A stretch of 64,000 nucleotides of DNA, taken from positions 1 to 64,000 of the forward strand of contig CAMPDV010000721.1 in NCBI GenBank assembly GCA_946699065.1. Direction: 5' to 3'. Positions 1-64,000 of the stretch are shown here, piece by piece. The notes below the pieces were generated by a model, which was given only the letters and a program-made list of their open reading frames with translations, did not search any database and had not been told where the DNA came from. Within the stretch, counting starts at the first letter, position 1, and the number at the start of each line of letters is the position of its first letter. Made by a program: the position numbers and the translations under genes. Source of the stretch: Loxodes magnus. Lineage: Eukaryota; Ciliophora; Karyorelictea; Loxodida; Loxodidae.

Positions 1-3000
1 TTCATCGTATCGGGAAGTTATGATTATACAGTGAGACTATGGGACGTCAAGACAGGTACCTGTAAGACCATGAGTGGTCACACTAATTAGGTATTATCTG
101 TGGCTATATCCAGTGATTCAGAGTTCATCGTATCGGGAAGTGTAGATAATACGGTGAGACTATGGGACGTCAAGACAGGTACCTGTAAGACCATGAGTGG
201 TCACACTAGTTATGTATCATCTGTGGCTATATCCAGTGATTCAGAGTTCATCGTATCGGGAAGTGGAGATTAGACGGTAAGACTATGGGACGTCAAGACA
301 GGTACCTGTAAGACCATGAGTGGTCACACTAGTTCTTTATCATCTGTGGCTATATCCAGTGATTCAGAGTTCATCGTATCGGGAAGTCATGATAAGACGG
401 TGAGACTATGGGACGTCAAGACAGGTACCTGTAAGACCATGAGTGGTCACACTAATGTTGAATGATCTGTGGCTATATCCAGTGATTCAGAGTTCATCGT
501 ATCGGGAAGTCATGATAAGACGGTGAGACTATGGGACGTCAAGACAGGTACCTGTAAGACCATGAGTGGTCACACTAGTTATGTATTATCTGTGGCTATA
601 TCCAGTGATTCAGAGTTCATCGTATCGGGAAGTGGAGATTAGACGGTGAGACTATGGGACGTCAAGACAGGTACCTGTAAGACCATGAGTGGTCACACTA
701 ATGTTGTTTGATCTGTGGCTATATCCAGTGATTCAGAGTTCATCGTATCGGGAAGTGGAGATTAGACGGTGAGACTATGGGACGTCAAGACAGGTACCTG
801 TAAGACCATGAGTGGTCACACTAGTTATGTATGATCTGTGGCTATATCCAGTGATTCAGAGTTCATCGTATCGGGAAGTTATGATAATACGGTGAGACTA
901 TGGGACGTCAAGACAGGTACCTGTAAGACCATGAGTGGTCACACACATTAAGTATGATCTGTGGCTATATCCAGTGATTAAGAGTTCATCGTATCGGGAA
1001 GTGCAGATTATACGGTGAGACTATGGGACGTCAAGACAGGTACCTGTAAGACCATGAGTGGTCACAAACATTATGTATCATCTGTGGCTATATCCAGTGA
1101 TTCAGAGTTCATCGTATCGGGAAGTGGAGATTAGACGGTGAGACTATGGGACGTCAAGACAGGTACCTGTAAGACCATGAGTGGTCACACTAATGTTGTT
1201 TGATCTGTGGCTATATCCAGTGATTCAGAGTTCATCGTATCGGGAAGTGCAGATTAGACGGTGAGACTATGGGACGTCAAGACAGGTACCTGTAAGACCA
1301 TGAGTGGTCACACAAGTTCTGTATATGCTGTGGCTATATCCAGTGATTCAGAGTTCATCGTATCGGGAAGTGGAGATTAGACGGTGAGACTATGGGACGT
1401 CAAGACAGGTACCTGTAAGACCATGAGTGGTCACACTAATGTTGTATGATCTGTGGCTATATCCAGTGATTCAGAGTTCATCGTATCGGGAAGTTATGAT
1501 TAGACGGTGAGACTATGGGACGTCAAGACAGGTACCTGTAAGACCATGAGTGGTCACACTAGTTATGTATCATCTGTGGCTATATCCAGTGATTCAGAGT
1601 TCATCGTATCGGGAAGTCATGATTAGACGGTGAGACTATGGGACGTCAAGACAGGTACCTGTAAGACCATGAGTGGTCACACTAATGTTGTATGATCTGT
1701 GGCTATATCCAGTGATTCAGAGTTCATCGTATCGGGAAGTTATGATTAGACGGTGAGACTATGGGACGTCAAGACAGGTACCTGTAAGACCATGAGTGGT
1801 CACACAAGTTCTGTATATGCTGTGGCTATATCCAGTGATTCAGAGTTCATCGTATCGGGAAGTGGAGATTAGACGGTGAGACTATGGGACGTCAAGACAG
1901 GTACCTGTAAGACCATGAGTGGTCACACTAATGTTGTTTGATCTGTGGCTATATCCAGTGATTCAGAGTTCATCGTATCGGGAAGTTATGATTAGACGGT
2001 GAGACTATGGGACGTCAAGACAGGTACCTGTAAGACCATGAGTGGTCACAAATGATATGTATATGCTGTGGCTATATCCAGTGATTCAGAGTTCATCGTA
2101 TCGGGAAGTGATGATTAGACGGTGAGACTATGGGACGTCAAGACAGGTACCTGTAAGACCATGAGTGGTCACACAAGTTCTGTATATGCTGTGGCTATAT
2201 CCAGTGATTCAGAGTTCATCGTATCGGGAAGTCATGATAAGACGGTGAGACTATGGGACGTCAAGACAGGTACCTGTAAGACCATGAGTGGTCACACAGG
2301 TTATGTATATGCTGTGGCTATATCCAGTGATTCAGAGTTCATCGTATCGGGAAGTCATGATAAGACGGTGAGACTATGGGACGTCAAGACAGGTACCTGT
2401 AAGACCATGAGTGGTCACACAGGTTATGTATATGCTGTGGCTATATCCAGTGATTCAGAGTTCATCGTATCGGGAAGTTATGATTAGACGGTGAGACTAT
2501 GAGACGTCAAGACAGGTACCTGTAAGACCATGAGTGGTCACACAGGTTATGTATATGCTGTGGCTATATCCAGTGATTCAGAGTTCATCGTATCGGGAAG
2601 TGGAGATTAGACGGTGAGACTATGGGACGTCAAGACAGGTACCTGTAAGACCATGAGTGGTCACACTAGTTATGTATCATCTGTGGCTATATCCAGTGAT
2701 TCAGAGTTCATCGTATCGGGAAGTCATGATAAGACGGTGAGACTATGGGACGTCAAGACAGGTACCTGTAAGACCATGAGTGGTCACACTAGTTATGTAT
2801 CATCTGTGGCTATATCCAGTGATTCAGAGTTCATCGTATCGGGAAGTCATGATAAGACGGTGAGACTATGGGACGTCAAGACAGGTACCTGTAAGACCAT
2901 GAGTGGTCACACTAGTTATGTATCATCTGTGGCTATATCCAGTGATTCAGAGTTCATCGTATCGGGAAGTGGAGATTAGACGGTAAGACTATGGGACGTC

Positions 3001-6000
3001 AAGACAGGTACCTGTAAGACCATGAGTGGTCACACTAGTTATGTATCATCTGTGGCTATATCCAGTGATTCAGAGTTCATCGTATCGGGAAGTCATGATA
3101 AGACGGTGAGACTATGGGACGTCAAGACAGGTACCTGTAAGACCATGAGTGGTCACACTAATGTTGTTTGATCTGTGGCTATATCCAGTGATTCAGAGTT
3201 CATCGTATCGGGAAGTGATGATTTATAAGTGAGACTATGGGACGTCAAGACAGGTACCTGTAAGACCATGAGTGGTCACACTAGTTATGTATGATCTGTG
3301 GCTATATCCAGTGATTCAGAGTTCATCGTATCGGGAAGTGGAGATTAGACGGTGAGACTATGGGACGTCAAGACAGGTACCTGTAAGACCATGAGTGGTC
3401 ACACTAGTTATGTATGATCTGTGGCTATATCCAGTGATTCAGAGTTCATCGTATCGGGAAGTGGAGATTAGACGGTGAGACTATGGGACGTCAAGACAGG
3501 TACCTGTAAGACCATGAGTGGTCACACTAGTTATGTATCATCTGTGGCTATATCCAGTGATTCAGAGTTCATCGTATCGGGAAGTCATGATAAGACGGTG
3601 AGACTATGGGACGTCAAGACAGGTACCTGTAAGACCATCAGTGGTCACACAGGTTATGTATATGCTGTGGCTATATCCAGTGATTCAGAGTTCATCGTAT
3701 CGGGAAGTGGAGATTATACGGTAAGACTATGGGACGTCAAGACAGGTACCTGTAAGACCATGAGTGGTCACACTAGTTATGTATCATCTGTGGCTATATC
3801 CAGTGATTCAGAGTTCATCGTATCGGGAAGTCATGATAAGACGGTGAGACTATGGGACGTCAAGACAGGTACCTGTAAGACCATGAGTGGTCACACTAAT
3901 GTTGAATGATCTGTGGCTATATCCAGTGATTCAGAGTTCATCGTATCGGGAAGTCATGATTAGACGGTGAGACTATGGGACGTCAAGACAGGTACCTGTA
4001 AGACCATGAGTGGTCACAAACATTATGTATCATCTGTGGCTATATCCAGTGATTCAGAGTTCATCGTATCGGGAAGTTATGATTAGACGGTGAGACTATG
4101 GGACGTCAAGACAGGTACCTGTAAGACCATGAGTGGTCACACAGGTTATGTATATGCTGTGGCTATATCCAGTGATTCAGAGTTCATCGTATCGGGAAGT
4201 CATGATAAGACGGTGAGACTATGGGACGTCAAGACAGGTACCTGTAAGACCATGAGTGGTCACACAGGTTATGTATATGCTGTGGCTATATCCAGTGATT
4301 CAGAGTTCATCGTATCGGGAAGTTATGATTAGACGGTGAGACTATGAGACGTCAAGACAGGTACCTGTAAGACCATGAGTGGTCACACTAGTTATGTATC
4401 ATCTGTGGCTATATCCAGTGATTCAGAGTTCATCGTATCGGGAAGTCATGATAATACGGTGAGACTATGGGACGTCAAGACAGGTACCTGTAAGACCATG
4501 AGTGGTCACAAAAATTAAGTATGATCTGTGGCTATATCCAGTGATTCAGAGTTCATCGTATCGGGAAGTGTAGATAATACGGTGAGACTATGGGACGTCA
4601 AGACAGGTACCTGTAAGACCATGAGTGGTCAAACTAGTTAAGTATCATCTGTGGCTATATCCAGTGATTCAGAGTTCATCGTATCGGGAAGTGGAGATTA
4701 GACGGTGAGACTATGGGACGTCAAGACAGGTACCTGTAAGACCATGAGTGGTCACACTAATGTTGTTTGATCTGTGGCTATATCCAGTGATTCAGAGTTC
4801 ATCGTATCGGGAAGTTATGATTAGACGGTGAGACTATGGGACGTCAAGACAGGTACCTGTAAGACCATGAGTGGTCACAAATGATATGTATATGCTGTGG
4901 CTATATCCAGTGATTCAGAGTTCATCGTATCGGGAAGTGGAGATTAGACGGTGAGACTATGGGACGTCAAGACAGGTACCTGTAAGACCATGAGTGGTCA
5001 CACTAATGTTGTTTGATCTGTGGCTATATCCAGTGATTCAGAGTTCATCGTATCGGGAAGTGGAGATTAGACAGTGAGACTATGGGACGTCAAGACAGGT
5101 ACCTGTAAGACCATGAGTGGTCACACAGGTTATGTATATGCTGTGGCTATATCCAGTGATTCAGAGTTCATCGTATCGGGAAGTCATGATTAGACGGTGA
5201 GACTATGGGACGTCAAGACAGGTACCTGTAAGACCATGAGTGGTCACACTAATGTTGTATGATCTGTGGCTATATCCAGTGATTCAGAGTTCATCGTATC
5301 GGGAAGTGATGATTTATAAGTGAGACTATGGGACGTCAAGACAGGTACCTGTAAGACCATGAGTGGTCACACTAGTTATGTATGATCTGTGGCTATATCC
5401 AGTGATTCAGAGTTCATCGTATCGGGAAGTGATGATTTATAAGTGAGACTATGGGACGTCAAGACAGGTACCTGTAAGACCATGAGTGGTCACAAACATT
5501 ATGTATCATCTGTGGCTATATCCAGTGATTCAGAGTTCATCGTATCGGGAAGTGGAGATTAGACGGTGAGACTATGGGACGTCAAGACAGGTACCTGTAA
5601 GACCATGAGTGGTCACAAACATTATGTATGATCTGTGGCTATATCCAGTGATTCAGAGTTCATCGTATCGGGAAGTGTAGATAATACGGTGAGACTATGG
5701 GACGTCAAGACAGGTACCTGTAAGACCATGAGTGGTCAAACTAGTCATGTATGATCTGTGGCTATATCCAGTGATTCAGAGTTCATCGTATCGGGAAGTC
5801 ATGATAATACGGTGAGACTATGGGACGTCAAGACAGGTACCTGTAAGACCATGAGTGGTCACACTAGTTATGTATTATCAGTGGCTATATCCAGTGATTC
5901 AGAGTTCATCGTATCGGGAAGTAGAGATTATACGGTGAGACTATGGGACGTCAAGACAGGTACCTGTAAGACCATGAGTGGTCACACACATTATGTATAT

Positions 6001-63700: not shown

Positions 63701-64000
63701 TCCAGTGATTCAGAGTTCATCGTATCGGGAAGTCATGATAAGACGGTGAGACTATGGGACGTCAAGACAGGTACCTGTAAGACCATGAGTGGTCACACTA
63801 ATGTTGTATGATCTGTGGCTATATCCAGTGATTCAGAGTTCATCGTATCGGGAAGTCATGATAAGACGGTGAGACTATGGGACGTCAAGACAGGTACCTG
63901 TAAGACCATGAGTGGTCACACTAATGTTGTTTGATCTGTGGCTATATCCAGTGATTCAGAGTTCATCGTATCGGGAAGTTATGATTAGACGATGAGACTA
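50681..64000 (+). CDS. Giant WD40-repeat protein, continuation after one-base insertion
   Basis: After the extra C at about 50680 the same WD40 reading continues in frame 2 to the end of the window, about 108 further repeats, partial at the right edge. Residues and recoded stops follow the same rules: TAG at residue 25, TGA at residues 4, 5 and 7, TAA at residue 26. The final unit has Val27 changed to Met (ATG at about 63991), and no terminal domain or end-of-gene signal appears. If the inserted base is a sequencing or assembly error, this and the upstream segment are one CDS of over 21,000 codons. If it is real, translation would leave the WD40 frame here. The first reading is favoured because two otherwise matching copies of the same segment lack the base. 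Confidence 0.68.
51855..53822 (+). repeat. 8-unit tandem duplication (2 x 984 bp) in copy B
   Basis: Copy B counterpart of the eight-unit pair, with the same order of variable words in both blocks and the same terminal ATA-GGT unit immediately after it, near 53821. Confidence 0.85.

Follow-up and report, generated by a model that had tools for sequence, protein, structure and literature searches.

Can a tandem array whose protein frame is interrupted hundreds of times by all three standard stop codons be a gene, or have been one until recently? The question is raised by positions 1 to 64,000 of contig CAMPDV010000721.1 (the window, 64 kb in length), which consist of 123-base-pair (bp) units that read as WD40 repeats in one frame of the forward strand and carry TAA, TAG and TGA in that frame. 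A preliminary description of this DNA had seen in it a possible open reading frame (ORF) of more than 21,000 WD40 residues, in which TGA would stand for Trp and TAA and TAG (together TAR) for Gln, and had held that the pattern is not that of decaying DNA. Our analysis suggests that the array probably codes for a giant WD40 concatemer of the recognition type, or did so until very recently, with TAA, TAG and TGA being sense inside genes; we judge it equally probable that TAR and TGA had sense meanings when the units diversified as protein.

Organization of the array and its reading frame

Tandem Repeats Finder gave a period of 123 bp with 520.3 copies, 94% matches and 0% indels across positions 1-64000. 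Splitting the window at this period yielded 520 complete 41-codon WD40 units, 105 of them distinct, and one part unit, and the array extends beyond the window on either side. The spacing between units is 123 bp in 518 of 519 cases and 124 bp in the remaining one, so that the frame is indeed kept over some 520 units with one inserted base, as had been described. The lone extra base turns TTC into TTCC and shifts the WD40 frame of the remaining window. The proposed ORF of more than 21,000 residues therefore stands in part: the WD40 frame is found throughout, but the extra base splits it into 16,892 codons upstream and 4,441 downstream, and a single frame of that length is possible only if the extra base is tolerated or was introduced by sequencing.

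The motifs DQTVRLWD, VWSVAIS and KHWVLSV were all found as described. A stretch free of stops under the standard code scores as WD40 by Pfam (PF00400) at 1e-69 without recoding, and a read-through stretch at 3.5e-74, so the family assignment is independent of the code. The longest standard-code ORF has 262 amino acids (aa), and the 64-kb window holds no other of at least 200 aa. In each of the other five frames, almost all units have stops within their constant part (509-518 of the 518 units in register on which this check was made, for at least one site per frame). The scan of the 64-kb window for transfer RNA (tRNA) genes found none, and no Rfam family reached its gathering score there.

Placement and frequency of the in-frame stop codons

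The 520 complete units contain 588 stops in the WD40 frame (TAG 274, TGA 265 and TAA 49), which confirms that all three occur in frame throughout. There are 112 units without a stop, 233 with one, 171 with two, 3 with three and 1 with four. The stops are confined to eight of the 41 codons, namely 7 (1), 9 (273), 10 (46), 14 (4), 29 (67), 30 (20), 32 (174) and 40 (3), and 581 of the 588 fall in codons 7, 9, 10, 29, 30 and 32. They take up 52% of the units at codon 9, 33% at codon 32 and 13% at codon 29. The alternation of stops with sense codons that had been noticed at residues 25 and 7 of the earlier numbering is seen at our codons 9 (TAG 273, AAG 132, TAT 53, TTA 46, AAT 12, TTG 4) and 32 (TGA 174, TCA 170, TAT 162, TTA 14).

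Copies made by gene conversion are not independent, so alleles were counted instead of units, and the tests that follow are modest in strength. Four of the nine stop alleles at variable codons exceed 5% of units (the four commonest are present in 273, 174, 67 and 37 units), compared with none of the 17 variants at constant codons, each of which is found in at most 25 of the 520 units (Fisher p=0.008). Stop and sense alleles at variable codons had medians of 10 and 55 copies, a difference that was not significant (p=0.34). Three stop alleles, TAA and TGA at codon 10 together with TGA at codon 29, cannot be reached from any sense allele of the same codon by fewer than two substitutions, so they are not single hits on alleles now present. 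Relative to the frequencies expected from independent bases, stops are in excess at codons 10 (0.088 vs 0.006), 29 (0.129 vs 0.017) and 30 (0.038 vs 0.026) and fall short at codons 9 (0.525 vs 0.572) and 32 (0.335 vs 0.445), as well as at codon 7, which is taken up below. These observations support the view that the stops are members of a variable repertoire and not scattered damage.

They also bear on the possibility that a WD40 gene in a standard-code genome lost its function and was amplified into a non-coding satellite, through which neutral stops were spread by conversion. Neutral stops would be expected at any codon and at a few per cent, whereas nearly all of those observed lie in six codons, reach the shares given above and are in some cases two changes away from any sense allele. 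The constant codons offer 11 one-step routes to a stop, and only two of them have been taken, in 4 and 3 units; the neutral expectation for stops at constant codons is 3.4% of variants. The satellite explanation gains from the homogenization of third codon positions, from copying in blocks of tens of units, and from rare constant-codon variants that look neutral (see below). Disrupted repetitive propellers in Nostoc (PMC9218822) and stops in het-d of Podospora (PMC12222747) are also on record. On balance we consider a satellite of this kind unlikely.

A separate observation concerns neighbouring codons. TTA at codon 9 is always paired with TAA or TGA at codon 10 (46 of 46 units, for example units 43-44 at 5290-5535), and a three-codon form, TTA TGA GCG at codons 9-11, is seen 9 times. 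The joint replacement of two codons is not a point-mutation pattern.

Hypermutation as a possible source of the stops

Hypermutation of C to T and G to A turns CAR (CAA or CAG) into TAR and TGG into TGA, thereby imitating a Gln/Trp code. Repeat-induced point mutation (RIP), or deamination, acting on an ordinary fungal NACHT-WD40 array would thus yield exactly the residues proposed here, and RIP is known from the Podospora gene family, in which it inactivated pseudogenes and reportedly makes amber and ochre stops more likely (PMC1805685). The constant codons of the array are nearly untouched, however: only 29 of 7,280 CpA/TpG targets have changed, 25 of these being one synonymous change at codon 11, C-to-T or G-to-A changes number 49 in all among 46 sites in 520 units, and codon 14, which encodes the tryptophan of the WD motif, is TGG in 515 of 520 units. 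At the variable codons there are 320 TAR and 261 TGA, but a single CAR and no TGG. A near-complete change limited to the variable codons is not credible; RIP-type hypermutation was rejected on these grounds, and we regard it as extremely improbable.

Variable codons and their spacing

Of the per-base entropy, 94% falls on codons 7, 9, 10 and 28-33, and 78% on six of these nine; in order of codon entropy, codons 7, 29, 9, 32, 30 and 28 lead. Variability was measured within this one array. Codon 8 is GAT in 519 of 520 units, although the flanking codons 7 and 9 vary at all three bases, and codon 31 encodes Val (GTA or GTT) in 494 of 520. In the HNWD proteins of Podospora, strong positive selection acts on codons 7, 9, 25 and 27, which map to the top of the propeller and enclose codons 8 and 26, themselves under purifying selection (PMC1805685), and positions 10, 11, 12, 14, 30, 32 and 39 have been used for their high ratio of nonsynonymous to synonymous substitution rates (dN/dS) (PMC12222747). 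Counted round the unit, codons 28, 29, 30, 32, 7 and 9 of the array have the same spacing (1, 1, 2, 16, 2) as HNWD positions 10, 11, 12, 14, 30 and 32, while the seventh HNWD position (39) corresponds to the invariant codon 16. The pairs 30/32 and 7/9 are spaced like the strongly selected HNWD pairs 7/9 and 25/27 (PMC1805685). The chance that six named codons out of 41 would be the top six is 2.2e-7, or about 1e-5 when 41 offsets are allowed for. The same six codons are within the ten most variable positions of 197 distinct prokaryotic repeats, which were aligned to a unit with its six variable residues masked. With near-identical units and with variability at positions of the interaction face, the array has the features of a highly repetitive, recognition-type (HNWD-like) WD40 array.

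Homogenization and block copying

The third positions of constant codons are fixed to the same degree as the other positions. The array has thus been homogenized, and conservation of the frame is by itself little proof of coding. Near-identical blocks lie 209, 213 and 238 units apart and extend over 107, 60 and 61 units respectively, and the copies differ at variable codons only, except for codon 1 of unit 412, which is disturbed by the extra base. The largest pair, units 72-178 and 281-387, shows 10 codon differences in 3 units, all of them in codons 7, 9 and 28-33; a 107-unit (13 kb) block repeated 209 units (25.7 kb) away indicates copying in very large blocks. When the common alleles of the two variable segments are paired, 69 of 182 combinations are present, and all four allele combinations occur in 321 of 7,098 quartets. 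We read the widely recombined alleles together with the block copies as the outcome of unequal exchange and conversion among units that share one scaffold. Since such exchange explains the constant frame and the constant third positions, their constancy is not evidence for coding, and the argument that frame conservation proves coding was dropped because homogenization suffices. The earlier view that this is not decaying DNA consequently keeps its support from stops that lie mainly in hypervariable codons and loses that from the survival of the frame; rare variants, moreover, look neutral.

The block copies could also come from an assembler that expanded or mosaicked a shorter array, since the blocks differ by swaps of known alleles and mixing of reads could yield such differences. 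The 520 units nevertheless include the 105 distinct ones mentioned above, and an artefact of this type would change the length and order of the array, not the presence of stops in its common alleles, so we consider it quite improbable as an explanation.

Predicted fold

When TAR was read as Gln and TGA as Trp, seven units containing 12 stops of 6 kinds (Table 1) were predicted to fold as a WD40 propeller. The best of the seven-unit models, from single-sequence prediction, has a mean predicted local distance difference test score (pLDDT) of 91.9 and a predicted template modelling score (pTM) of 0.90, and four of the five models have a pLDDT of at least 89.5. The best Foldseek match of the seven-unit model is ODA16 (5mzh), and designed seven-bladed WRAP propellers are among the matches listed, with query TM-scores of 0.85-0.93. 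In the first unit of the model, residues 7-10 and 25-30 lie between strands, in line with the loops of HNWD. The units are thus predicted to form a WD40 propeller. No propeller-sized periodicity was found in the order of units, identical units having a frequency of 0.029 at lag 7 and 0.014 at lag 14, against 0.024 by chance.

Residues for which TAR and TGA may stand

Among the 197 prokaryotic repeats, codons 14, 30 and 32 are most often Trp and codon 9 is most often Gln. Candidate residues were compared over a list of known stop-codon assignments (Glu, Lys, Leu, Tyr and Trp; Arg, Gly and Cys). For TAR, Gln came ahead of Glu, Lys, Leu, Tyr and Trp. For TGA, Trp came ahead of Arg, Gly and Cys when codon 14 was counted, and Arg came ahead of Trp when it was not. 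When all 20 residues were allowed, Trp was likewise first for TGA only with codon 14. The previously proposed Gln is accordingly the best of six assignments for TAR, and the proposed Trp the best of four only by virtue of codon 14. Units 20, 84 and 293, which carry TGA at that codon, are 64 and 209 units apart, block copies included, so that the four copies represent one or two events. Because the case for Trp among the known assignments rests on codon 14, our confidence in the overall reading is slightly lower, and the weight given to the satellite explanation slightly higher, than they would otherwise be. TAR = Gln and TGA = Trp is our best guess from the sequence comparisons, and a weakly supported one.

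Observations that weigh against a translated, recoded array

Several results count against the reading that we prefer. Applied to 24 sense codons, the residue-ranking method gave the correct residue top rank in only 10. Over all 20 residues the order for TAR was Gly, Arg, Gln, with Gln 1.7 natural-log units below Gly and level with Thr. For TGA without codon 14, Arg, Ser, Thr, Ala, Asn and Gln all came ahead of Trp, and the evidence with codon 14 amounts to the one or two events noted above. In the 197 repeats, Trp makes up just 1% of residues at codon 29 and does not occur at codon 10. The variable codons almost lack TGG and CAR, although synonyms would be expected to be used there, and TGA at codon 7 is rarer than independent bases predict (0.002 vs 0.06), a hint of avoidance. 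Purifying selection was not visible in the rare single-base variants of constant codons, of which 2 of 16 are synonymous under the Trp/Gln code and 1 of 16 under the standard code, about 25% being expected without selection. The single frame break at 50,677-50,680 belongs here as well. As for the fold, one of the five seven-unit models failed (pLDDT 45.1), a 15-unit stretch reached a pLDDT of only 64.8, which is low confidence, and the propeller prediction supports the family and not the code. A proof of coding from dN/dS was tried and is unsupported, the rare constant-codon variants looking neutral.

Part of this evidence would also be explained if the array is dead in a genome that is recoded, that is, if the units diversified as protein under an all-sense code and translation has since been lost, for example in satellite or germline-limited DNA. 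Such a history agrees with the lack of purifying selection on rare variants, the one frame break and the repertoire-like stops. It agrees less well with the frame, which apart from one indel is maintained across 64 kb, though homogenization could maintain it. This explanation, which we hold to be doubtful, overlaps with our preferred one, whose wording includes "until very recently".

Comparison with known WD40 arrays and genetic codes

The collections searched for relatives comprised phage, plasmid, viral and prokaryote sequences and no eukaryotes, so absence from them says little about a protist host. The phage and plasmid collections gave no blastn match to window positions 1-2500, which served as the query, and an exact 22-base pattern was absent from the viral and prokaryote contigs searched. 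Of the protein scans of viral contigs one gave no pattern match, and the other gave 14, none encoding a relative. Among the prokaryote contigs, 9 loci are WD40 arrays, mostly cyanobacterial, whose best segments are 30-50% identical. Four genomes (L001, L004, L007 and L008) have WD40 matches, at least 150 in each of three and 11 in the fourth, with no internal stop among the matches listed. A search of titles and the beginnings of abstracts found no published WD40 array that uses all three stops in frame, a limited negative.

The closest parallels are of two types. The array resembles the HNWD (HET-D/HET-E) NACHT-WD40 proteins of Podospora anserina in its near-identical units, concerted evolution, spacing of variable sites and reshuffled repeats. 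It differs in that het-d alleles have 11 repeats, other numbers being counted inactive (PMC12222747), compared with more than 520 here; in that stops mark broken alleles there, one strain having two stops in a het-d repeat (PMC12222747); and in that the window holds the array alone, with no NACHT or effector domain within it. It also resembles the highly repetitive prokaryotic WD40/WRAP propellers, in which the repeats of a protein are highly identical to one another and most sites are conserved, while the predicted interaction hotspots are diverse (PMC5587647). The top blade number in one survey of propellers was 47, in a Penicillium protein (PMC9218822), and the same source documents highly repetitive propellers broken by frameshifts or in-frame stops, for example in Nostoc.

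As regards the code, precedents exist in several protists. In the codes of Condylostoma, Parduczia and Loxodes, UAR stands for Gln. All three stops are translated in Condylostoma and Parduczia, depending on context, and UGA usage is low there (0.042% and 0.120%; PMC4967479), compared with 265 of 21,333 codons (1.2%) here. In Loxodes (table 27) UGA is Trp or stop, and tandem repeats make up 231-359 Mb of Loxodes assemblies (PMC11441545). All three stops are likewise sense in Amoebophrya sp. ex Karlodinium veneficum (PMC6394959, PMC12005148), and the word WD40 is absent from the main text of PMC12005148. The same is true of the stops in Blastocrithidia nonstop, where UAR is Glu (PMC12153298), as opposed to our best guess of Gln. 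Given their codes and the repeat content of Loxodes, a ciliate of the Condylostoma, Parduczia or Loxodes kind would be a plausible host for the array, and Amoebophrya ex K. veneficum would be another.

Proposed mechanism and its implications

The analogy with HNWD and the highly repetitive WD40 proteins suggests that the most likely product of the array, now or in the past, is a recognition surface. Alleles would be spread and reshuffled by unequal recombination and gene conversion while the scaffold is kept identical. As has been suggested for Condylostoma and Parduczia, suppressor-type tRNAs would decode TAA, TAG and TGA, and termination would be set by the context in the transcript. The blades may close into about 74 propellers, whose faces would recognize variable partners of the self/non-self or pathogen type, and the host, most probably a protist, would use TAA, TAG and TGA as sense codons inside genes. 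We put forward more tentatively the narrower proposal of one translated recognition protein in which at least 500 WD40 blades are hypervariable, its frame in this window being no shorter than 16,892 codons, and in which stops are letters of diversity. The former stops of such a living protein might then, just as tentatively, be the principal source of Gln and Trp variation on the binding face.

If the preferred reading is true, the array unites stop-less codes and fast-evolving recognition propellers with identical scaffolds, which in the literature covered here are seen separately, and its blade number would be more than ten times the 47-blade maximum of the survey cited above (PMC9218822). 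It would further be a natural test of termination and of the avoidance of nonsense-mediated decay, with about one former stop per unit. Stops in the hypervariable codons of repeats are a possible annotation-free clue to recoded genomes.

Feature coordinates and minor observations

Table 1. Features of the window (positions in contig CAMPDV010000721.1; codons numbered from the first unit)
Feature	Position	Strand	Basis
Tandem array of 41-codon WD40 units	1..64000	+	Tandem Repeats Finder, unit splitting, Pfam
First unit, numbering reference (codon 1 = TTC at 1-3)	1..123	+	
Hypervariable codons 7, 9 and 28, first unit	19-21, 25-27, 82-84	+	
Hypervariable codons 29, 30 and 32, first unit	85-87, 88-90, 94-96	+	
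Conserved codons 8 and 31, placed between hypervariable ones	first unit, 1..123	+	
TGA in place of TGG at codon 14 (WD tryptophan)	2500..2502; also 4345, 10372, 36079	+	
Longest standard-code ORF, 262 aa; spans the only six-unit stop-free run (units 47-52)	5758..6546	+	
Units 72-178, near-identical copy of units 281-387	8857..22017	+	block comparison
Seven units, 12 stops of 6 kinds, predicted WD40 propeller with TAR = Gln and TGA = Trp	34195..35055	+	structure prediction
Units 281-387, partner block	34564..47724	+	block comparison
One-base insertion, TTC to TTCC	50677..50680	+	unit spacing, frame lengths

Near the right end of the window, units 504 and 506, two of three neighbours, carry unique alleles at codons 7-8 (CAA TAT at 62012-62017 and TGA at 62258-62260, respectively), possibly a fresh change or a sequencing error. 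Units 47-52 (5782-6519) are the sole run of six stop-free units. They have the rare alleles AGA and TTA-TCA at variable codons, unit 50 has LNEVKTS in place of LWDVKTG, a private change in constant codons, and unit 51 has a private G19C; this part of the array is possibly older than the rest, or evolves differently.

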